64,000 nt of DNA. It comes from Oceanimonas pelagia (GTDB lineage: Bacteria; Pseudomonadota; Gammaproteobacteria; Enterobacterales; Aeromonadaceae). Positions within the stretch are counted from its first letter, which is position 1; each line of letters starts with the position of its first letter. The DNA lies in the NCBI RefSeq assembly GCF_030849025.1, contig NZ_CP118224.1, positions 1,224,001 through 1,288,000 on the forward strand. Reading direction: 5' to 3'. Shown one piece after another: positions 2,641 through 31,777 of the stretch. The translations under genes and the position numbers were made by a program. The notes beneath the pieces are model-generated. The model worked only from the letters and a program-made list of their open reading frames with translations. It searched no databases and had not been told where the DNA came from.

Positions 2641-3933
2641 ATGCTTGAACAATATTTTAAGCTCAAAGAGCTCAACACCAACGTCCGCCAGGAGGTGGTG
2701 GCGGGCATTACCACCTTTCTTACCATGGCCTACATCATCTTCGTCAATCCGGCGATTTTGTCGGAGGCGGGCATGGATTATGGCGCCGTGTTTGTGGCCA
2801 CCTGTCTGGCGGCGGCATTGGGCTGCTTTATCATGGGGCTGGCGGCCAACTACCCCATTGCCCTGGCGCCGGGCATGGGCCTGAACGCCTTTTTCACCTA
2901 TACCGTGGTGCTTACCGAAGGCTACAGCTGGCAAAGCGCCCTGGGCGCCGTGTTCTTCTCCGGCTGTATCTTTGTGCTGCTCAGCCTGTTCAAGGTGCGG
3001 GAGTGGATCATCAACGCCATTCCTCAGCCGCTCAAGCTCGGCATTGCCGCCGGCATCGGTCTGTTTCTGGCACTGGTGGGGCTGAAAAGCGCCGGCATTA
3101 TCGTGGATAACCCGGCCACCCTGGTGGGGCTGGGCGACATTACCGGCCTGCAGGCGGGCCTGGCGGTGCTGGGCTTTTTCCTGATCATCGGCATGGCGGC
3201 CCGGGGCATGCGCGGTGCGGTGATGATCGGCATTCTGGCGATCACCGGCCTTGGCCTGGCTTTTGGCGATGTGGAATATCAGGGCATAGTGTCTGCCCCG
3301 CCTTCCATCATGCCCACCTTTATGCAGCTGGACATTGCCGGTGCCTTTAACGTGGGCATGCTGTCGGTGATCTTCGCCTTTCTGTTTGTGGACCTGTTCG
3401 ATACTTCCGGCACCCTGATCGCCGTGGCCCAGCGGGCCAAACTGCTGGACGAGCAGGGCCGGCTGCCGCGCCTGGGCCGCGCCCTGCTGGCCGACAGCAC
3501 CGCTTCCATTGCCGGCTCGGTGCTGGGCACCTCCACCACCACCTCCTATGTGGAAAGCACCGCCGGCGTGGCCGTGGGCGGACGCAGCGGCCTCACCGCC
3601 GTGGTGACCGGCCTGCTGTTTATTGCCGCCATTCTGTTTTCGCCGCTGGCGGGCATGGTGCCGGCCTACGCCACCGCCGGTGCCCTGGTGTATGTGGCGG
3701 TGCTGATGCTGGCTCAGCTGGCCCACCTGCACTGGGACGACCTCACCGAAGCCGTGCCCGCCGTGGTGGTACTGGTGATGATGCCCTTTACCTTCTCCAT
3801 CGCCCACGGCATTGCCTTTGGCTTTATCAGCTTTGTGGGCGTCAAGGTGCTGTCCGGCCGCGCCAGTGAAGTGAGCCCGGTGGTCTGGGCGCTGGCGGTG
3901 CTGTTTGCGCTGAAGTTTGCCTTTGGCGTGTGA
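2641..3933 (+). CDS. NCS2/AzgA-type adenine, hypoxanthine or guanine permease
   Basis: A 430-residue integral membrane protein with 12 or more predicted spans, the normal size for AzgA-like purine:proton symporters in the inner membrane. Family segments visible are VVAGITTFLTMAYIIFVNP at the N-terminus, ALAPGMGLNAFFTY, and the pair FLFVDLFDTSGTLIAVA and LGTSTTTSYVESTAGVAVGGRSGLTA that form the substrate site. It stands alone between terminators. I cannot tell from sequence whether adenine or guanine/hypoxanthine is preferred. Confidence 0.88.
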   Translation: MLEQYFKLKELNTNVRQEVVAGITTFLTMAYIIFVNPAILSEAGMDYGAVFVATCLAAALGCFIMGLAANYPIALAPGMGLNAFFTYTVVLTEGYSWQSALGAVFFSGCIFVLLSLFKVREWIINAIPQPLKLGIAAGIGLFLALVGLKSAGIIVDNPATLVGLGDITGLQAGLAVLGFFLIIGMAARGMRGAVMIGILAITGLGLAFGDVEYQGIVSAPPSIMPTFMQLDIAGAFNVGMLSVIFAFLFVDLFDTSGTLIAVAQRAKLLDEQGRLPRLGRALLADSTASIAGSVLGTSTTTSYVESTAGVAVGGRSGLTAVVTGLLFIAAILFSPLAGMVPAYATAGALVYVAVLMLAQLAHLHWDDLTEAVPAVVVLVMMPFTFSIAHGIAFGFISFVGVKVLSGRASEVSPVVWALAVLFALKFAFGV

Positions 3934-3972
3934 GCGCGCGGTGCAGCATTGACGCCAGTCGCCATTAAATAC

Positions 3973-3999
3973 AAAAAAGCCCCGGAACCGGGGCTTTTT
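3973..3999. terminator. Bidirectional terminator between the purine permease and asnS
   Basis: The stem AAAAAGCCCCGG / CCGGGGCTTTTT with a two-base loop has an A run on one side and a T run on the other. It sits between converging genes and can end both transcripts. Confidence 0.85.
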
Positions 4000-4020
4000 G
4001 CTTTCATTTTTCGCGAATAA

Positions 4021-5421
4021 TCAGAACTCGGCGTTGCGCGGGGTGCGGGGGAAGGGGATCACATCCCGCACGTTGCCCATGCCGGTGACGTAGGCCACCA
4101 GGCGTTCAAAGCCCAGACCAAAGCCGGCATGAGGCACGGTGCCGTAGCGGCGCAGATCCCGGTACCAGCCGTAGTCTTCCTTGTTCAGGCCCATTTCTTC
4201 CAGGCGGGCGTCCAGTACTTCCAGCACCTCTTCCCGCTGGGAGCCACCGATGATCTCGCCAATGCCGGGAGCCAGCACATCCATGGCCGCCACGGTTTTG
4301 CCGTCCGGGTTCAGCTTCATGTAGAAGGCCTTGATGTCTTTCGGGTAGTTCTTCACCACCACCGGCGCCTTGAAGTGTTCTTCGGCCAGGTAGCGCTCGT
4401 GTTCGGAAGACAAATCCACGCCCCATTCCACCGGGAACTCGAACTTCCTGCCGGATTTTTTAAGGATCTCCACCGCATCGGTGTAGTCCACCTGGGCGAA
4501 GTCCTTTTCCACAAAGCTCTGCAGCCGGGTAATGGCGTCTTTATCCACACGCTGGGCGAAGAAGGTCATGTCGTCCATGCGCTCTTCCAGCACAGCGCGG
4601 AACACGTATTTCAGCATGTCTTCGGCCAGTTTGGCGGCATCATCCAGATCGGCAAAGGCCACCTCCGGCTCCACCATCCAGAACTCGGCCAGGTGGCGGC
4701 TGGTGTTGGAGTTTTCGGCGCGGAAGGTGGGGCCAAAGGTATACACCTTGCTCAGGGCGCAGGCGTAGGTCTCGGCGTTGAGCTGGCCGGACACGGTAAG
4801 AAACGCTTCCTTGCCAAAGAAGTCTTCGCCAAAGTCGATGTCGCCCTTGTCGGTGCGCGGCAGGTTGTGCAGATCCAGGGTGGATACCCGGAACATTTCC
4901 CCGGCGCCTTCGCAGTCGGACGCGGTCACGATGGGAGTGGCCACCCACATGTAACCGTTTTCATGAAAGAAGCGGTGCAGCGCCTGCGACAGGCAGTTGC
5001 GCACCCGGGCCACGGCGCCAATCAGGTTGGTGCGCGGGCGCAGGTGGGCGTATTCCCGCAGATATTCAATGGAGTGGCGCTTGGCGGCCATGGGGTAGGT
5101 GTCGGGATCGTCTACCCAGCCCACCACCTTGACCTCGGTGGCCTGCAGCTCGAAGTCCTGGCCCTGGCCCTGCGACTCCACCACTGTGCCGGTGACTTCC
5201 ACCGAGCAGCCGGTAGTCAGACGCACCACTTCAGACTGATAATTCGCCACGTTATTGGGCACCACGGCCTGCACCGGATTGAAGCAGCTGCCATCGTGAA
5301 TGGCCAAAAACGAAATTCCCGCCTTGGAGTCACGGCGAGTGCGAATCCACCCCTTAACGGTAAGGGGGGTGCCAACGGCATATTTGCCTGCCAGCACATC
5401 AGTTACGGATGCGTGGGTCAT
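4021..5421 (-). CDS. asnS: Asparaginyl-tRNA synthetase
   Basis: A 466-residue class IIb aminoacyl-tRNA synthetase that charges tRNA-Asn. The N-terminal OB-fold anticodon domain (about residues 15-110) is followed by the catalytic core. Motif 2 is visible as [22 protein letters not shown] and motif 3 as [27 protein letters not shown]. The frame is open 54 codons further upstream, but the start at 5421 gives [14 protein letters not shown], the usual N-terminus of bacterial AsnS. It is transcribed divergently from the next gene. Confidence 0.97.
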
Positions 5422-5533
5422 GTAAATCGCTCTCCAGCTTTGAACTAAACCGGCCCCTGGCCGATACACTATACATAAGGGAGCTAATGTTACCCGTGTG
5501 GGGTCAGGACTCAAGCAAAAGATGGGAGGGGCT

Positions 5534-5878
5534 ATGGCGAAGCAACGCAAAGACTGGCTCGGCGCCTGGCTTGCGGCCCTCACCGGCGGCGGCTGGACAC
5601 TCTACATACTGCTGCTGATCCTGTTTCACTACGGCCGGCCCGAGCAGCACTACGGCTATCTGCGCTACCTGGAGGTGGAAGTGCGCACCGGCTGGCTTAC
5701 CCTGCCGACGCTGTGGTTTCACCTGGGCATCTGGGGCGCCCTGGGGCTGGCGGTGACCACCTTTACCCTGGTGCACCTCAAGGGCCGGCGCCACAGCCAG
5801 TATCTCAAGGTGTATCTGGTGATGCTGGCCGCCGCCGCCCTGTTTACCCTGCTGTTGTTTTACTTTTATCCCGCCTAG
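5534..5878 (+). CDS. Small membrane protein of unknown function
   Basis: A 114-residue protein with three predicted membrane segments (about residues 11-29, 55-78 and 90-111) and a tyrosine-rich stretch between the first two. I do not recognise the family. I chose the ATG at 5534 because GGAGGGG lies just before it; the frame is open upstream to 5498. The L,D-transpeptidase gene starts 48 bases downstream, so the two may be cotranscribed, but nothing else ties it to the cell wall. Confidence 0.65.
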
Positions 5879-5926
5879 GGCGAGAAGTTGACCATACTTG
5901 TGGCAACAACCCAGGGAGGGGATGCG

Positions 5927-7255
5927 ATGATAAACATACTGCTCAGGCTGTTGATAACCGTGGCCCTGCTGCTGAGTGGCCCGGCATGGGCGCAGCTGTT
6001 GTGGCATCACGGCAACACGCTGAATCCGGCCGGGCAGCAGTTGCAACAACTGTTGCTGCCCGATGAGCCTGCGTTTGCCGCCATGAGTCCGGCCGAACGG
6101 GACGACTGGCTAACCCGGGAATGGCGTGCCGTGTTGCAGGAAAGAGAACGCTTCGCCCAATACACCCTGCCGGCCCACTGGCGCACCGAGGGCTTTGACC
6201 AGGCCATTCGCCAGCAGGAGCTCACTACCTACATGGCCGGCCAGGCCCCCGATTACCACGGTTACCGCGAACTGCAGCGTCATTACCAGCGCCTGGCCGA
6301 TGTCACCCATTACACCACACTGCCTTCGGGGCCGAACGTACGCCCCGGCGAGCGGGACGCGATCATTCCGGTGCTGCGCCAACGGCTGGCGGAGCTCGGC
6401 CGGCAAGTGCCGGTGCCGGTCGGCCGGGCCGATGTACTGGACCCGCCGTTAAGTGAAACTCTTTCCACCCTGCAGCGGGCCGGGGGCCTGGAGGTGACGG
6501 GAGGGCTGAATCAGGCCACCCGTGCACTGATTAACCGTCCGCCCGCCGAACTGCGCGCCGAAATAAAAATCAACCTGCACCGCTGGCTGCGGCTGCCCCC
6601 GGCCACCCGTGACTATGTATTGATCAACATTCCTTCCTACCGGCTCACCCTGGTACGGGACGGTCGGCCCCAACTGGCCATGAAGGTAATAGTGGGCCGG
6701 CCCGACTGGCCCACCCCCGAGCTGGCCACCCACATAGACGCCCTCAAGGTGAACCCGGACTGGACCCCCACCGCCAATATAATGCGGGAAGACCTGTTGC
6801 CGGCTCAGCGGCGCGACGCCGGCTATCTGGATCGCAACGGCTTTATTGCCTGGCTGCCCGGAGAAAGTGCGCCCGTGTTGCCATCCAGCATCAACTGGCA
6901 GGCTCCGCCCCCCGGTCTGCGCCTGGTGCAAGAGCCTGGCCCTCACAATGCCCTTGGGCGGCTCAAGTTTGAAATGCGTAACCGCCACAGCGTGTATTTG
7001 CACGACACCCCCCATAAATCCCTGTTCGGCCGGGACCGGCGGGCGCTCAGCCACGGCTGCGTGCGCCTGGCCGAGCCGGCGGCACTTGCCAGCGGGCTGG
7101 GCTGGCAGGTACCCGGGCACGAGCGTACCCAGGTGCTGCCGCCGTCACAGCGGCTGCCGGTCTACATGGTGTATTTCACCACCTGGAGCGAGGGCGGCAG
7201 CCTGGTGTTTGCCGGGGATATTTATGGCAAAAACCGGGCCGCCAACGACGCATAG
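5927..7255 (+). CDS. L,D-transpeptidase, YcbB-like
   Basis: A 442-residue exported enzyme. An N-terminal signal sequence (about residues 1-22, ending PAWAQ) is followed by a scaffold with a peptidoglycan-binding-like segment (near residues 165-205), then the YkuD catalytic domain. The active-site motif SHGCVRL is at residues 375-381, with Cys378 as the nucleophile, and the upstream histidine is in SVYLHDT. Such enzymes form 3-3 cross-links or attach proteins to peptidoglycan in the periplasm. It is shorter than E. coli YcbB (615 residues). The ATG at 5927 has a GGGAGGGG ribosome site. Confidence 0.88.
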   Translation: MINILLRLLITVALLLSGPAWAQLLWHHGNTLNPAGQQLQQLLLPDEPAFAAMSPAERDDWLTREWRAVLQERERFAQYTLPAHWRTEGFDQAIRQQELTTYMAGQAPDYHGYRELQRHYQRLADVTHYTTLPSGPNVRPGERDAIIPVLRQRLAELGRQVPVPVGRADVLDPPLSETLSTLQRAGGLEVTGGLNQATRALINRPPAELRAEIKINLHRWLRLPPATRDYVLINIPSYRLTLVRDGRPQLAMKVIVGRPDWPTPELATHIDALKVNPDWTPTANIMREDLLPAQRRDAGYLDRNGFIAWLPGESAPVLPSSINWQAPPPGLRLVQEPGPHNALGRLKFEMRNRHSVYLHDTPHKSLFGRDRRALSHGCVRLAEPAALASGLGWQVPGHERTQVLPPSQRLPVYMVYFTTWSEGGSLVFAGDIYGKNRAANDA

Positions 7256-7622
7256 CAACACCATTGGAATTCGAACGAATCCTTGAATGGGAACCAAACG
7301 AAAAACATGAACAATAGAGCGGGAGCGGGCGGTGAACTTTCGGAAACTTGCATTAATAAACTGCCTTGCGGCTCGTGGAACTGAGCTATAAATAATAACA
7401 AGCACAATGCTTAAGGCCCGGCACTTAAGAGAAGAGAAAAGTACCGGATCATATAATCAAGCGAAAGGGAGGCCGCGAGACTATATGAAGCAAACAGGCA
7501 CAGGCGGTGCCGGATTGAAAGCAAAGCACTCTGAGTGACTCAGAGCCAAAGCAAGTTTTAACCAGGAAGGTTTTCTGTAAAACAGGGACCTGAAAACACA
7601 AGCAAGGAAAGAGGGTTTTCTT
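7256..7622 (+). promoter_or_regulatory. Leader and promoter region of the Tad pilus locus
   Basis: This 367-base gap precedes the pilin gene and is poorer in G+C than its surroundings. It holds a TATAAT hexamer at 7452-7457 without a convincing -35 box at normal spacing, and a perfect hairpin CTCTGAG-TGA-CTCAGAG at 7529-7545. A long untranslated leader ending in AAGAGGG before the pilin ATG is likely. I see no coding sequence in it. Confidence 0.45.
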
Positions 7623-7829
7623 ATGTTTATTGCCAAAGAACTGTTGCGTCTGGTGAATGATGAAGATGGTCTGACCGTGGTTGAATATGCGATTGCGGGT
7701 GGGTTGGTAGCTGCGGGTGTGGTTACTGCTTTTGTGGGATTGGGGGAAAGGGTTGATTTGGTAATTACAGACCTTTGTGGAAGTGTTGGTAAATCTGATG
7801 CAGCTTCCGCTGCTACGAAAAATTGTTGA
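7623..7829 (+). CDS. flp: Flp-type class IVb pilin, major subunit of the Tad pilus
   Basis: A 68-residue prepilin. The short leader ends in Gly, and the sequence after it, LTVVEYAIAGGLVAAGVV, has Glu at +5 and Tyr at +6, the class IVb Flp cleavage signature recognised by TadV. The hydrophobic assembly helix follows. The mature tail holds two cysteines (DLCGS and the final KNC). It is the first gene of the Tad locus and is followed by a hairpin terminator that should keep its transcript more abundant than the downstream ones. Confidence 0.93.
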   Translation: MFIAKELLRLVNDEDGLTVVEYAIAGGLVAAGVVTAFVGLGERVDLVITDLCGSVGKSDAASAATKNC

Positions 7830-7839
7830 TATCTAAAAA

Positions 7840-7861
7840 GGCGGCCAGTGCCGCCATTTTT
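7840..7861 (+). terminator. Partial terminator (attenuator) between flp and tadV
   Basis: GGCGGC-CAGT-GCCGCC forms a perfect six-bp stem with a four-base loop, followed by ATTTTT. It lies between the pilin stop and the prepilin peptidase start, 13 bases before the tadV ATG. The position suggests partial termination that gives a high pilin-to-machinery ratio. Confidence 0.7.
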
Positions 7862-7873
7862 AATGGTGGGTAT

Positions 7874-8392
7874 ATGGAACAGCTACCATTAATACTATTT
7901 TTGATGGCGGCGTGCTGGATGGATCTGGCCCGCCAAAAGATTCCCAACTGGCTGACGCTGAGTTTTATTCCCCTGGCGTTGGCCTTTCATGCCTTTGTTG
8001 GTGAAGGCCCGGCCTTTGCCCTGACCGGTCTGGTTTATTCCTTTATTATTCTGTTTCCGTTTTTTGTATTGCGTATTCTTGCCGGTGGTGACGTCAAGCT
8101 CGGCATGGCCATTGCCACCTTTGTAGGCTGGCAGGTATTTCTCGAAGCCCTGCTCTATGGCCTGATGATTGGTTTGCCCTTGGTATTAATACTGGCCTGG
8201 CGCCGGGTGGGCTGGCAGGGCTTTAAAACCACCTTCAGCCGTTACGGCATTATCCTTGGCTCCCGCCGCTATCTGGCGCCGGCAGAGAATGAAGTGGCCG
8301 GCCTGAAGGTGCCCTACGGTCCGGCCCTGGCCCTGGGCGCGGCGCTGGCGGTGGTACTGAACGAGCTGCAACTTTTTACCCTGGTGTCCTGA
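7874..8392 (+). CDS. tadV: TadV/CpaA prepilin peptidase (A24 family)
   Basis: A 172-residue inner-membrane aspartic peptidase that removes the leader of Flp and of the TadE-type pseudopilins. The two catalytic aspartates are visible in ACWMDLARQKIPN and in LAGGDVKLG. It lacks the N-terminal methylase domain of PilD, as expected for TadV. The start at 7874 follows a GGTGGG ribosome site; an open frame runs further upstream into the hairpin and is unlikely to be used. Confidence 0.9.
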   Translation: MEQLPLILFLMAACWMDLARQKIPNWLTLSFIPLALAFHAFVGEGPAFALTGLVYSFIILFPFFVLRILAGGDVKLGMAIATFVGWQVFLEALLYGLMIGLPLVLILAWRRVGWQGFKTTFSRYGIILGSRRYLAPAENEVAGLKVPYGPALALGAALAVVLNELQLFTLVS

Positions 8393-8445
8393 CATACTGG
8401 TCGGCCGCTAGCTTGCAGCTGCCGGCTTAAAAGGAGGTAACAAGG

Positions 8446-9681
8446 ATGTACCTGCCCAAACCCAAAACCCTGGCCGATACCGGCCTCTCCAAGGAATTAC
8501 TGTTTCGCCTCTGCCTGCGCCACCTGCAGGAAGAGGCGTCGCTGTCTTTGCCCGCACTGGCCGAGCGCCTGTGCCTGCGCGGCAGCATTGTCGAGCCCCT
8601 GCTGCAGGAGCTGAAAACCCTGCAAATGGTGGAGGTGCGCGCCTCGGGCCGTATGGACGAGCCCATTCGCTTTGCCCTTACTCAAAAAGGGCAGTACGAA
8701 GCCCAGGTGCTGAACGAGCGCGACGGCTACATAGGCCCGGCGCCCATCCCCCTGGCCGACTACAATCGCCTGGTGCTGGCCCAGTCTCTGGGGGAGCGCA
8801 GCATTCGCCGGGAGCGGCTTGAAGCCGCGCTTGCCGACATGGTGATCAGCCCCGAGCTGGTCAACGTGCTGGGCCCGGCCCTTAATTCGCGCCGGCCCCT
8901 GCTGATTTACGGCCATGCCGGCACCGGCAAAAGTTTTTTGTGCCACCGTTTTAACAAGGTATTTGACGAGCATATTTATGTGCCTCATGCCATTGCCATT
9001 CAGAACACCATTATTCCGGTGTTCGATCCCCTTTATCACTGGCGAACCGAGCACGACGAACCCGAACATGACGCCCGCTACATTGCCTGCCGGCGGCCGC
9101 TGGTGATGGTGGGCGGCGAACTCAAGCTTGATATGCTGGAGGTGCATTTTGACCGGCAATCCCGCCAATACAGCGCGCCCTTGCAAATGAAAGCCAATAA
9201 TGGCGTATTTTTAATTGACGATCTGGGTCGCCAGGGTTTTTCCGCCGATGAACTCTTCAATCGCTGGATTGTGCCCATGGAGGAAAAGCGGGATTTTCTT
9301 TCCCTTCCCAATGGCCTGCATTTTGATATTCCCTTTGAACAGATACTGGTGTTTTCCACCAACCTGGATCCGGAGTCCATTGCCGACGAGGCGTTTTTAC
9401 GCCGCCTGGGCTACAAGCTGCAATTGCAGGCCATGCCGGAAGAACTTTACCGAAAAGTCTGGAACATGAACCTGGAAAAATACCGGCTGTCCGCCACCGA
9501 TGCATTATTCCACTTTATGGTGAAAAAACTGCACCAGGGCAGCAACAAACCGCTGATCGCCTGCTATCCGCGGGATATTCTGGGCATCGCCCGCGACATT
9601 ATGCATTTCAATGGTCAGGCCAACGAGCCGTTGAATGAAGAAGTTTTAACCAAAGCCTGGCACATGTATTGCGTGCACTGA
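8446..9681 (+). CDS. AAA+ ATPase with an N-terminal winged-helix-like domain, embedded in the Tad locus
   Basis: A 411-residue protein. Residues about 15-85 look like a winged-helix fold. The AAA+ core has the P-loop GHAGTGKS at 156-163, Walker B VFLIDDLGR at 254-262, a sensor-1 Asn in VFSTNLDP near 306, and a candidate arginine finger in RRLGYK near 320. It is not the TadA secretion motor, which lies downstream. A strong ribosome site (AAGGAGG) precedes the ATG. It sits between tadV and rcpC, which suggests a regulatory or assembly role in piliation. I know of no defined function. Confidence 0.8.
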   Translation: MYLPKPKTLADTGLSKELLFRLCLRHLQEEASLSLPALAERLCLRGSIVEPLLQELKTLQMVEVRASGRMDEPIRFALTQKGQYEAQVLNERDGYIGPAPIPLADYNRLVLAQSLGERSIRRERLEAALADMVISPELVNVLGPALNSRRPLLIYGHAGTGKSFLCHRFNKVFDEHIYVPHAIAIQNTIIPVFDPLYHWRTEHDEPEHDARYIACRRPLVMVGGELKLDMLEVHFDRQSRQYSAPLQMKANNGVFLIDDLGRQGFSADELFNRWIVPMEEKRDFLSLPNGLHFDIPFEQILVFSTNLDPESIADEAFLRRLGYKLQLQAMPEELYRKVWNMNLEKYRLSATDALFHFMVKKLHQGSNKPLIACYPRDILGIARDIMHFNGQANEPLNEEVLTKAWHMYCVH

Positions 9682-27697: not shown

Positions 27698-28690
27698 ATG
27701 AAAAAAACGATTCTTGCACTGACCATCCCTGCGCTGTTCGCTACCTCTGCCAGCGCTGTGACCGTTTACTCCGACGAAGGCGCCCAGGTTGATATCTATG
27801 GCCGCGTACAATACGAAGCTGGCGCTCTGGATTATCAGGCTGCCAAGCCTGAAAAAGCAGAAAACTTCGGTGGTTTGGGGGAAGCCCGTCTGGGTACCAA
27901 CATCAAATATGCCCTGAACAACGACGTGGATCTGATCGGTAAGCTGGAATGGCAGGTTGCTGCTGAGAAGTCTGACGGCTCCAAGTTTGATTCCCGTTAC
28001 GCCTGGGCCGGCTTCCGCTTTATGGACACCACCGACCTGACTGTGGGCCGTGTGAACAGCCCCTATGCTCAGCTGCTGGATTACACCGACGTGCTGAACG
28101 TGTTTGGTGGTATTGCAGCATACGGCTCTGAGCTGGGTACTACCGATAAGGTAGACGACATGGTGCGTGTAGCTTACGCCGCCAATGGTGTTGACCTGCG
28201 TGCCGGTTACTCTTTCAACGATGCCGACAAACAAGACACTAACACTGGCGAAGAAAATCGCTGGTCTGTGTCTGCCGGTTACACCCTGCCGATGGGTCTG
28301 GGTTTTGGTGCTGCCTACGAGCAAATCGCTTTCAATAATGGCGCAGACCAGGACAACTGGATTGCCGGTGTGAACTACACCCTGGATGGCCTGTACGTAG
28401 CCGCCATTTACACCGAGCAGGAAAAAGACGTTCTGGGCGGTGGCAAAAACGAGTCTGAAGGTTACGAGCTGCACGCTCAGTACAATGTAGACGCCTGGAC
28501 CGTACTGGCTCAGTACTCCAATGAAGAATACACCCCCGCTGGTGGTTCCTCTGAAGATACTGTTGACGCCATCACTCTGGGTGTTCAGTACAGCCTGACT
28601 CCGAAAGCCAAGCTGTACGGTGAATACCTGATCAGCGACGTGGCTGACGAAGACGACCTGTACGGCGTTGGTATTCAATATAACTTCTAA
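27698..28690 (+). CDS. General porin, outer-membrane trimeric beta-barrel
   Basis: A 330-residue porin of the OmpU/OmpC type. The signal peptide ends ATSASA, the mature protein starts VTVYSDEGAQVDIYGRVQYE, and the chain ends in Phe (GIQYNF), the usual signal for outer-membrane barrel assembly. Codon use favours GGT, GCT and CGT more than its neighbours, as expected for a very abundant protein. A group II intron sits one base after its stop codon, separating it from its natural terminator at 31673-31698. Confidence 0.93.
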   Translation: MKKTILALTIPALFATSASAVTVYSDEGAQVDIYGRVQYEAGALDYQAAKPEKAENFGGLGEARLGTNIKYALNNDVDLIGKLEWQVAAEKSDGSKFDSRYAWAGFRFMDTTDLTVGRVNSPYAQLLDYTDVLNVFGGIAAYGSELGTTDKVDDMVRVAYAANGVDLRAGYSFNDADKQDTNTGEENRWSVSAGYTLPMGLGFGAAYEQIAFNNGADQDNWIAGVNYTLDGLYVAAIYTEQEKDVLGGGKNESEGYELHAQYNVDAWTVLAQYSNEEYTPAGGSSEDTVDAITLGVQYSLTPKAKLYGEYLISDVADEDDLYGVGIQYNF

Positions 28691-28691
28691 C
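28686..28691 (+). other. IBS1, 5' exon target of the group II intron
   Basis: TCTAAC, which includes the porin stop codon TAA (28688-28690), is the last six bases before the intron 5' end. It is fully complementary to GTTAGA at 29445-29450. Confidence 0.7.
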
Positions 28692-29857
28692 GTGCGACGA
28701 GAGTCGTGCGAGTCCTAGTCTAAATCTTTGATTTAGCTAGGAAAAGTGGTCAGGGGTTGCCCCCTGACCACTCCCTTACCTCCGTAGATGGCTGAATCGG
28801 AGGGCCCTTCCAGGGTTCCATCACTATCCAATAAGCGCACTTTGCGCACTCAATATAACCAGGGATGAAAATCCTGTGGTACAAACAGCGGCCTGCGGCT
28901 GCCTGTTATTCAATGAGAGCTTTCCGCTCACATCTCAAATGTGATGAATGATCATCCTGTTCTCCAAACGGGTTCGGTCTGACCATCCACATTCAATTTT
29001 TCGACCTATTCCATGTACGGAAGAGGCGCGTGTTTGCGTCTGTCCAGTGGTCACGTCGTGATTGAATGCCAACCAGGGAGAATGGCCGCCTACGCCATTC
29101 TTGAAACTCGCACGCGCAAGCTGTGTGTTCGATTGTTCCACCCGCTGCTGTACTTCCCTGTGGAGCAGCGGACATGGGAACCCATTGTTCAGCCAATGGT
29201 GGTCCAGGGATAGGGCATTTCTGGTAACGGATTTGTCCGAAGCTTCCTGACAATGTACTCACCCGCAAGGGCCCGGTTTCTGTGAAGAAACCGGTAGATT
29301 CTGCCAGCAGCAATGGTGGATGAGAGGCTAGACCAGCAGGCTAGGGTGAACGTATGTGAATCACTGATAAACCTCGTCATTGTAAACCGGCGCAAGCTGC
29401 TGAATTCGCCGGAGCCAAAATGGCACATAGCCGGTTAACCCTTTGTTAGATGGGGTTACGCTGACATCAGGCTATCGGGGAACAGGTGGCACCTAAGGCC
29501 ATGCAATCATTCGAACACACGGAACTCGGCAATCCCGTTATCGTGCCCATTCGGGCAGGCGAACCGCAAGGGGAGCTGTTGCGGTAGCGGGCATGGGAGG
29601 CAGGAAAAAGCGAATGCCAGTCTGTAACGGATTGGATAGCGGTCAACATGCCGCACCCGAAAGGGGAGCAGACGTCCTGCTGGTCTTCAACTGCGTGAAA
29701 ACGTGTAAAGCGTCCAACGTGTCTAAAGAAAGCGAGTGAAGGTGTTGCAGCACCTTCACTCAATACCCTGACGGGGCGATAAGCTCTCCCCGTTAGGGGA
29801 GAACTGTCCGCTTCGCCGGGGTGCTTTCAACACAAAAGCACTTCGGAGGATAGCAAG
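28692..29857 (+). ncRNA. Group II intron RNA domains I-III upstream of the encoded protein
   Basis: No protein gene is supported in this stretch. The first 100 bases fold into successive hairpins (for example CCTAG...CTAGG, and GTGGTCAGGGG pairing with CCCCTGACCAC at about 28746-28775). Sequence from about 29250 to 29857 reads like a structured intron core, with EBS1 at 29445-29450. The piece from about 28780 to 29250 is not obviously part of a standard domain I and makes the 5' region longer than usual. Confidence 0.6.
29445..29450 (+). other. EBS1, exon-binding site 1 of the group II intron
   Basis: GTTAGA is displayed in the loop of a TAACCC / GGGGTTA hairpin and is complementary to the six bases before the intron (28686-28691). 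Confidence 0.7.
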
Positions 29858-31555
29858 ATGAGTGCATCCAAACCAGCGGCAGCCGCCGCGACTCTGGTTG
29901 TATCTGCATTCTCCCATCCGACCGACTGGCACAGTATTCACTGGCGTCAGGTTCATCGGCGGGTGCGGGGGCTACAGGTACGGATCGCAGAGGCAACCAA
30001 GAACCAGCAATGGCGACGCGTCAAGCAGTTGCAGCGCCTGCTGGTACGCTCGTTTGCAGCGCGTGCGCTGGCCGTCAAACGAGTCACTGAAAATCGAGGC
30101 AAACGGACCGCCGGGGTGGACGGAGCAATCTGGAGTACGCCCGACACCAAATGGCAGGCCATAGGTCGTCTGACGCGAACGGGGTATCGCCCTCAGCCGC
30201 TCAGACGGGTTTATATTCCCAAGAGCAACGGTAAACGCCGTCCGCTCGGGATCCCCACCATGCACGACAGGGCCATGCAGGCGTTATATCTGCTGGCGTT
30301 GGAGCCGGTGGCGGAAACCACGGGAGACCTTAATTCCTACGGCTTCCGGCCCCACAGATCTACCGCTGACGCGATAGCGCAATGTCGTAATGCGTTGTCA
30401 CGAAAGCTACAGGGCCCTTGGGTTCTAGAAGGGGATATCAAGGGGTTCTTTGACAATATCAGCCACGACTGGATACTGCGCCACGTCCCCCTGGACCGGC
30501 AGGTACTCAGAAAATGGCTGGCATCCGGGTACATGGAGAAAGGCAGGCTGTTTGCAACCACGGCAGGTACACCGCAAGGTGGCATTATCTCGCCGGTCAT
30601 TGCGAACATGGTGCTGGATGGGCTCGAAACTCGTTTGGCTGCGTTATGCCAGACTCGGGCAGACATACTGGCGCTGCGCATCAAATATGTCAGGTATGCC
30701 GATGACTTCATCGTGACCGGCAGTTCGAAAGAGCTGCTGGAAACAAGAGTAAAACCGCTGATCGAGGCCTTTATGGCGGAGAGAGGGGTGGAGCTGTCGG
30801 CAGAGAAAACCCTGATCACGCATATTGATGATGGTTTTGACTTTCTCGGCAAGAACCTGCGTAAGTACAAGGGTAAGCTGCTGATCAAACCAAGTAAAAA
30901 GAATGTGAAAGCGTTCTTGAGCAAGGTCAGTGACGAGCTGAAACGGTACAGGATGGCACCGGCATGGCAGGTGGTGATGCGGCTCAACCCGATGATTCGG
31001 GGCTGGGTCAACTACCACCGTCATGGGTCGTCCTCGCAAACGTTCTCCTACGTGGACCATCGGCTGTGGCACATGCTGTGGCGATGGGCGAAACGCAGGC
31101 ACTCCAATAAGCCCAGACGCTGGATCGCCCAGAAGTACTTTGGGCAGCAGCGGGGCCGGAAGTGGGTATTCTTCGGAACGCCCCCGGATGGGAAAACGTT
31201 GTTTCTGGTGCAAGCGAACCAGACAACAATAAAGTGGCACGCCAAGATCAGAAGCGAAGCCAATCCCTATGATCCGAAGTTCGAGCAGTACTTTGAGAAG
31301 CGTCAGTTGGAGCGACTCAAGGAGAACCGGCTTTGGACCAGCAAGCTCAAGCTGATATGGGAGAAGCAACAGCGCCGTTGCCCGCTTTGCGGGGAACCGT
31401 TCCGGGATAATGATGACTGGGATTTACACCACATCATCTACCGGACACGGGGTGGCGGTGATGAAAGCACGAACCTGGTAATGCTGCATCCAAATTGTCA
31501 CCGGCAGTACCATGCCAAGACAGACAGTAAGGAAGCTGGTGTCTATGTTAAGTAG
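29858..31555 (+). CDS. ltrA: Group II intron-encoded protein: reverse transcriptase, maturase and HNH endonuclease
   Basis: A 565-residue multifunctional protein. An N-terminal RT-associated domain (about residues 24-95, with WHSIHWRQVHRRVRGLQVRI and VTENRGKRTAGVDG) is followed by the RT core with the active site YADD at 280-283 and GTPQGGIISP near 237-246. The maturase X domain spans about 340-440. A C-terminal HNH nuclease has CPLC (508-511), HH at 524-525, and NCHRQYH at 546-552. All catalytic residues are present, so the intron may be mobile. GGAGG precedes the ATG. Confidence 0.95.
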   Translation: MSASKPAAAAATLVVSAFSHPTDWHSIHWRQVHRRVRGLQVRIAEATKNQQWRRVKQLQRLLVRSFAARALAVKRVTENRGKRTAGVDGAIWSTPDTKWQAIGRLTRTGYRPQPLRRVYIPKSNGKRRPLGIPTMHDRAMQALYLLALEPVAETTGDLNSYGFRPHRSTADAIAQCRNALSRKLQGPWVLEGDIKGFFDNISHDWILRHVPLDRQVLRKWLASGYMEKGRLFATTAGTPQGGIISPVIANMVLDGLETRLAALCQTRADILALRIKYVRYADDFIVTGSSKELLETRVKPLIEAFMAERGVELSAEKTLITHIDDGFDFLGKNLRKYKGKLLIKPSKKNVKAFLSKVSDELKRYRMAPAWQVVMRLNPMIRGWVNYHRHGSSSQTFSYVDHRLWHMLWRWAKRRHSNKPRRWIAQKYFGQQRGRKWVFFGTPPDGKTLFLVQANQTTIKWHAKIRSEANPYDPKFEQYFEKRQLERLKENRLWTSKLKLIWEKQQRRCPLCGEPFRDNDDWDLHHIIYRTRGGGDESTNLVMLHPNCHRQYHAKTDSKEAGVYVK

Positions 31556-31571
31556 GCATTTATGAAGGCTT

Positions 31572-31605
31572 GAGCCGGATGCCGGGAAACCGGCAAGTCC
31601 GGTTC
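31572..31605 (+). ncRNA. Group II intron domain V
   Basis: A 34-base hairpin beginning GAGCCGGATGCCGGG, with a GAAA tetraloop, and ending GTCCGGTTC, the catalytic domain V pattern. Domain VI follows directly. Confidence 0.88.
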
Positions 31606-31672
31606 TTAGGGGGGAGGGGAGCAGTAATGTGACCTTCCTACCCGACATCAGCTAACTAGCTGATACAGAAGT

Positions 31673-31698
31673 AAAAAGCCGGCGAAAGCCGGCTTTTT
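31673..31698 (+). terminator. Intrinsic terminator, probably the original porin terminator
   Basis: AAAAAGCCGGC-GAAA-GCCGGCTTTTT is a perfect stem with a stable GAAA loop. It lies 27 bases after the intron 3' end, where the porin terminator would be if the intron were removed. It can also serve the DksA-like gene on the other strand. Confidence 0.85.
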
Positions 31699-31777
31699 AA
31701 TGCCTGTGTTTCAGGCTTTCTGCGCTCTACCTCTCCTCACGCCTCACCCCTTACGTTTTACGTCCCACGTCCACGCC

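Follow-up and report, generated by a model that had tools for sequence, protein, structure and literature searches.

The closest described relatives of the element reported here are the group II introns that occupy the stop codon of groEL in Azotobacter, a lineage reportedly treated by Ferat in 2003 and by Michel in 2007. This lineage is described in PMC4465626, where Michel 2007 is quoted as the source for a monophyletic subset whose 5' extremity bears a large insertion; the subset is very likely the lineage to which our intron belongs. Class C introns offer a second comparison, as according to PMC4424553 they insert at terminator motifs and lack the endonuclease (En) domain. The element in question lies in a stretch of 64,000 nucleotides (nt) of Oceanimonas pelagia (contig NZ_CP118224.1, positions 1,224,001 to 1,288,000; the window), and with high probability it is a mobile, IIB-like group II intron seated in the 3' untranslated region (UTR) of a porin gene, in the slot between stop codon and terminator. 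Sequence comparison places it as a retargeted offshoot of the lineage to which the groEL stop-codon intron of Azotobacter belongs: it has the same long 5' extension and stop-codon slot, and its intron-encoded protein (IEP) groups there, with 61% identity to that of A. vinelandii (L074; L and G numbers denote loci and genomes of the comparison). Unlike the Azotobacter groEL intron, it has a porin as target, stands one base after the stop codon and not inside it, and carries rewritten exon-binding sites 1 and 2 (EBS1 and EBS2). With class C introns it shares a tolerated position at a gene end; unlike them, it possesses an HNH domain, pairs with the stop-codon sequence and lies 5' of the terminator. 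The element is a new retargeted member of a known specialised lineage, and the pattern at the level of the lineage is the more interesting result.

The features of the locus are the following, IBS denoting the intron-binding sites of the exon:

27698 to 28690, forward strand: porin gene, 330 amino acids, 5' exon (open reading frame; Pfam Porin_4, 1.1e-33)
28679 to 28683, forward strand: IBS2, TATAA (covariation scan)
28686 to 28691, forward strand: IBS1, TCTAAC, including the stop codon (exact complement of EBS1)
28692 to 31646, forward strand: group II intron, 2955 nt (Rfam; empty sites)
28692 to 29180, forward strand: long 5' extension, 489 nt, ahead of the domain I match (distance to the RF02012 match)
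29181 to 29327, forward strand: domain I stretch, RF02012 (Rfam, 95 bits)
29380 to 29384, forward strand: EBS2, TTGTA (covariation scan)
29445 to 29450, forward strand: EBS1, GTTAGA, in a hairpin loop (fold; covariation scan)
29858 to 31555, forward strand: IEP, 565 amino acids (RVT_N, RVT_1, maturase GIIM, HNH)
31572 to 31605, forward strand: domain V (RF00029; fold)
31609 to 31646, forward strand: domain VI, in which the unpaired A at 31640 is the putative branch point (RF00029; fold)
31647 to 31664, forward strand: small hairpin opening the 3' exon (fold; some empty sites resemble it in part)
31672 to 31699, forward strand: porin terminator, GCCGGC GAAA GCCGGC with flanking A and T runs (fold; kept in empty relatives)

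The intron is present once in the source genome, a single contig of 3.59 Mb. The porin ends in GIQYNF and its gene closes TTC TAA, the stop being located at 28688-28690, so that the C at 28691 is the sole base between stop codon and intron start. The intron opens with GTGCG at 28692 (GUGYG type) and closes with AC at 31646 (AY type), and its 5' extension begins with a GUGCGAC/GUCGUGC hairpin at 28692-28709 (fold of 28692-28780, z -8.25). Domains V and VI (31570-31646) were recognized by the full RF00029 model with 66.3 bits, and their fold had a z of -5.8, with the unpaired A at 31640 sitting 7 nt ahead of the 3' splice site. The comparison with covariance models that the first-pass annotation of this DNA had called for therefore fixed the 3' end exactly at 31646, while at the other border the models stop short of the 5' end; the position 28692 was derived from the conserved GTGCGAC start, the register of the EBS1/IBS1 pairing and the empty sites. 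All coordinates of that annotation hold, including both intron borders. The reverse transcriptase (RT), maturase and endonuclease domains of the IEP are intact and YADD is present; its best solved relative, by protein sequence only, is PDB 6me0 (RT/maturase/HNH, residues 20-555, 619 bits), which we take to be a T.el4h-type group II intron maturase. The matches obtained for the IEP in PADLOC were discarded as generic RT matches.

It had also been claimed that the intron splits the porin stop codon from its terminator, and coordinates, fold and empty relatives agree with this: the terminator hairpin starts 26 bases beyond the intron end. The pattern scan for terminators performed no better than shuffled sequence (4 matches in comparison with 3.9), reporting the porin terminator on the minus strand only, hence the call relies on the fold and on conservation. 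The promoter scan stayed at shuffle level as well (2 matches, 2.3 in shuffles).

As proposed from the sequence of the window, IBS1 is the exact reverse complement of the hairpin-loop sequence at 29445-29450. In order to examine the pairings across relatives, the 5' parts of 62 introns were aligned, and 58 of these, belonging to four target classes, entered a covariation scan that was blind to the site and compared intron positions with 12 exon offsets. Across porin, groEL and tRNA targets, the pairing of EBS1 with the final six bases of the exon ranked first; the next separate pairing was EBS2 against exon bases -13 to -9, which in the window consists of four Watson-Crick pairs and one G-T pair. 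After the addition of 13 introns (75 rows), EBS1/IBS1 was fully Watson-Crick at 6/6 positions in 66 rows and contained one G-T in five; among the remaining rows the off-target copy L088 had one mismatch, and three were preceded by intron sequence, with no exon. When two duplicates and the remaining tandem rows were set aside, 70 of the 71 exon-flanked introns paired at all six EBS1 positions with G-T allowed, and 65 by Watson-Crick pairs alone. Counting only distinct IBS1/EBS1 pairs, 10/11 were full (G-T allowed), and in 20,000 shuffles the number averaged 2.2 and peaked at 8, none reaching 10 or more. The guide pairings are real, beyond chance.

The same locus was also compared in relatives. 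The intron was found at three of the 29 porin loci with a readable porin end (source genome, G012, G027), the other 26 being empty; a thirtieth locus (L028) had no readable end. Collinear empty sites are supplied by genomes of the same genus, to which G012 and G020 also belong. After the porin stop the intron-less relatives match 31647-31698, terminator included, as was expected in the first-pass annotation. The junction is gapless in four of the six aligned empty relatives (L003, L004, L010, L011) and two bases short in L009 and L014, and the context TAAN-ATYAGCT is common to L010 and L011. Longer flanks were compared in five empty loci, of which L004, L009, L010 and L014 match at 79-86% in the upstream and 79-92% in the downstream pieces, and L003 at 73% upstream, with a downstream match of only 44 nt where the locus ends. 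Relative to the copy in Oceanisphaera psychrotolerans (L059), the intron is 95% identical, the flanking DNA 74% and the porin 69-71%, and this difference between intron and flank indicates that the intron moved horizontally between species; by these identities, the source genome appears to have gained it by recent horizontal transfer. The porin tails end with AACTTCTAA in 27/29 loci. Since the exon bases of the IBS specify the C-terminal QYNF motif together with the stop, they hardly vary within the porins of this family; consequently one guide suits very divergent porins, and the transfer between species probably proceeded by homing into this nearly invariant porin end. A census of the stop-adjacent exact pattern TAAN+GTGCGACGAGAGTCG, strict enough for variants such as G027 with one mismatch to escape, gave 2/394 genomes drawn from the order and 1/369 drawn from the class, the latter being the source genome itself. 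Megablast of the intron gave no match in plasmids or in E. coli genomes.

Porin-stop introns or remnants were recognized five times, in three genera that belong to a single family: the window, O. psychrotolerans L059, an Aeromonas metagenome-assembled genome (L058), L153 of G027, and L163 of G217, which is a 5' remnant; L059 ends with its contig after 2287 nt. Their pairs are TCTAAC/GTTAGA, TCTAAG/CTTAGA, TCTAAT/ATTAGA (twice) and TCTAAT/GTTAGA, which means that the base after the stop and the corresponding EBS1 base combine as C/G, G/C, T/A and T/A, with a T-G wobble in O. psychrotolerans. The porin clade received a Shimodaira-Hasegawa-like approximate likelihood ratio (SH-aLRT) of 100 in both trees and joins three Vibrionaceae groEL-stop introns with SH-aLRT 95 and 94. 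Since the porin clade is nested in the groEL-stop lineage, EBS1 (from TACATC to NTTAGA) and EBS2 have been rewritten. A pattern search for the groEL end GGYATGATGTAA of the source genome itself gave 0 matches.

The main set comprised 80 introns, namely the window and 79 further loci. Among them 43 occupy the groEL stop codon (TA^A or TG^A, the caret marking the insertion point), 18 a tRNA-Gly gene and three the position after the porin stop; one each lies after the stop of a PpiC-type isomerase (L111) and of ETF-QO (L130), L088 is off target, and L096 is seen solely beside its own end sequence. Twelve could not be assigned a target; in seven of these a 5' end is discernible, and it does not lie at a stop. 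The genes at L111, L130 and L074 were identified by Pfam, the other groEL genes by their end sequence together with the C-terminal GGM repeats where the open reading frame was listed. More distant kin from the search of the order stand directly after the stops of rpsI (L034, L056), gapA (L053) and pflB (L039, L040, L041, L054), these calls being made with one C-terminal fragment searched for each, and EBS1 fits six of these seven sites with G-T allowed. In the 75-row tree (L088, L096, L118, L133, L135 and L136 left out of the counts), placement at stop codon or tRNA needs two changes and the named targets nine. In the groEL introns the split stop is still read in the unspliced form in 43/43 cases (TAG 41, TGA 2), and the spliced form gives a stop in all 27 in which the 3' end was found by pattern (TAA 25, TAG 2; in L079, one of the two TAG cases, another intron start comes next). 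As a stop is read in either form, and in the porin precedes the intron, a complete protein can be made even from the unspliced transcript.

The 5' extension accompanies the stop-adjacent position. Taken between the start of the intron and its Rfam domain I match, the only measure for which this range is valid, the extension comprises 155-637 nt in those stop and tRNA introns for which it was determined (489 in the window) vs 44-87 nt in 15 kin that occupy other positions (seven, and eight from another set; L042 and L055 share one genome). By start-to-EBS1 distance, some groEL introns are longer, at 571-1135 nt vs 753 in the window. None of the 15 short-extension kin has an upstream frame of at least 50 codons that stops 10 nt or less from the junction. 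In L099, L110, L123 and L127 an upstream frame of 208-485 codons continues into the intron, thus these introns interrupt genes. The group of L109, L099, L102 and L107, placed inside the tree, has neither extension nor stop site, in accord with a link between the two traits, loss and gain being indistinguishable. We suggest that the extension may keep the ribozyme clear of a ribosome halted at the junction, or of one half of a folded tRNA.

From these data it is possible, although we would not yet favour it, that the lineage is specialised on the stop-codon slot as such and not on any one gene, its long 5' extension being an adaptation for folding and splicing beside the terminating ribosome, with the tRNA-Gly branch to be understood likewise, its spare tRNA compensating for the damage done. 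To the same tentative degree such a specialised lineage might count at least seven genes (groEL, porin, PpiC, ETF-QO, rpsI, gapA and pflB), each used within one base of the stop, and, no more firmly, EBS1 and EBS2 might have been rewritten at each move, with L088 and the L099/L102/L107/L109 group as the few known departures.

Several observations weigh against the interpretation given so far. The local EBS1 hairpin of the window is mildly stable (z -2.0), weak by itself, and the column scan for EBS3/IBS3 found no clear single covarying column. EBS1 was not located for the rpsI intron L056 nor for L099, and L107, L109, L110 and L123 have only 5/6 EBS1 pairs in the expected loop. L088 has a long extension (688 nt to EBS1) yet no stop site. 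Only three of the five porin-stop introns were seen whole, and the direction of the switch from groEL to porin depends on trees made by a quick method with a midpoint root. Finally, the second exact 10-base site of the source genome (AACTTCTAAC, within another gene) carries no intron; a count by eye gave a full fit of EBS1 and 3/5 of EBS2 there.

This empty second site, together with the single copy in the source genome and the truncated remnant in G217, would suit an immobile relic, that is, an intron that arrived once and has been inherited vertically ever since, its protein and ribozyme being intact merely because it is young. We consider this unlikely, because vertical descent accords poorly with the identities shared with O. 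psychrotolerans and with the different base after the stop in that copy, and because the porin slot is shared by three genera, EBS1 being adjusted to the local base.

For the mobile porin intron the following course of events may be proposed. The intron would be transcribed along with the porin and would self-splice with the help of the maturase. By the sequence evidence, it finds its site because EBS1 pairs with the six bases that close the exon (part of TTC followed by TAA-N) and EBS2 with a stretch of five bases upstream of these. The ribonucleoprotein (RNP) would locate other porin ends via EBS1 and EBS2, the HNH domain would cut the bottom strand, and target-primed reverse transcription would place a copy of the intron at porin stops that are still empty. 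Splicing, RNP targeting and bottom-strand cutting are standard for mobile group II introns. The suggestion that a 3' UTR site is cheap for the host is supported, since the porin stop lies upstream of the intron and is intact spliced or unspliced, and the porin can be made in either case. Retrotransposition may depend on strong transcription, as the first-pass annotation had suggested, and it is plausible that the site was chosen for strong transcription: porins, GroEL, S9, GAPDH and PFL fit this idea, ETF-QO and PpiC being less obvious fits.

The separation of stop and terminator, seen by eye in the porin, PpiC, ETF-QO and many of the inspected groEL cases, could also mean that the slot serves regulation, splicing rejoining the porin mRNA to its terminator and thereby tuning its stability or level; nevertheless the occurrence is sporadic, with most porin loci empty, and no sign of a host benefit was seen, so this appears quite improbable. 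A class C (IIC) intron guided by the porin terminator, or by the hairpin at 31647-31664, and not by the stop region is scarcely credible, because, despite both structures lying just downstream, the intron precedes the terminator, EBS2 and HNH are present, and 5/5 porin sites pair with EBS1 at six positions (one with G-T). As a target, the hairpin at 31647-31664 was rejected: it is not conserved in the six aligned empty sites and, by eye, is absent from the start of the 3' exon in G027.

Neither porin-stop introns nor tRNA-carrying group II introns were found in the literature searched, mostly without subscription papers; Michel 2007 may already list some of these targets. In this lineage the natural retargeting of a group II intron can be followed through several of its steps: guide and target change together, and the stop-codon slot stays constant. 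The lineage also makes several naturally evolved, related guide/target pairs available for intron-targeting studies. It further offers a testable case of a retroelement niche sparing the host even if splicing fails, and the tie between 5' extension and stop-adjacent sites suggests adaptation to ribosomes on the 5' splice site.

In the tRNA branch, the target is a tRNA-Gly(CCC) gene, which 18 relatives interrupt on the 3' side of the anticodon stem, CTTCCCAAGC^, in our own numbering after nt 40 and before nt 41 (L112-L117, L119-L122, L124-L126, L128, L129, L131, L132, L134). Inside these introns, just 5' of the protein gene, lies an intact tRNA-Gly(CCC), which ARAGORN detected in exactly these 18 of the 80 loci scanned (L118 was outside the scan). 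A second T-arm half follows the intron in 18/18 by a loose pattern, with a full reading in seven, and EBS1 GCTTGG matches the target in all 18. In this branch, a mobile intron thus brings along an intact duplicate of the very gene that it interrupts.

Some further arrangements were observed among the groEL-type introns. L088 (1-127) of Pseudoalteromonas arctica, which also bears the groEL copy L063, follows the exon AAGAAGTA with its one EBS1 mismatch, in what is presumably a transposase gene. At L155 of Zobellella iuensis (G020; 3623-9271) two introns stand head-to-tail in one groEL stop codon, and the downstream one begins ATGCG, not GTGCG; such a start would restore the A after GATGTA and thus perhaps a fresh target for a second insertion. 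In L079 a second intron start adjoins the end of the first intron. Intron fragments were present on two contigs of G006, of the same genus as the source (L161, L162), one of them in a groEL stop TG^A with the intron start ATGCG. The contig L096 (1-3460), 3460 nt long, consists of one whole intron with a repeated end, which points to a tandem array or a circular form. Lastly, a clade without 5' extension (L042, L043, L046, L047, L048, L055, L150, L152) has a conserved 5' exon of its own, approximately TAAC/TGAC, N, C and an A/T-rich run, followed by TTGTCC, TGGGGC, ATGCCC or TTGTTC.

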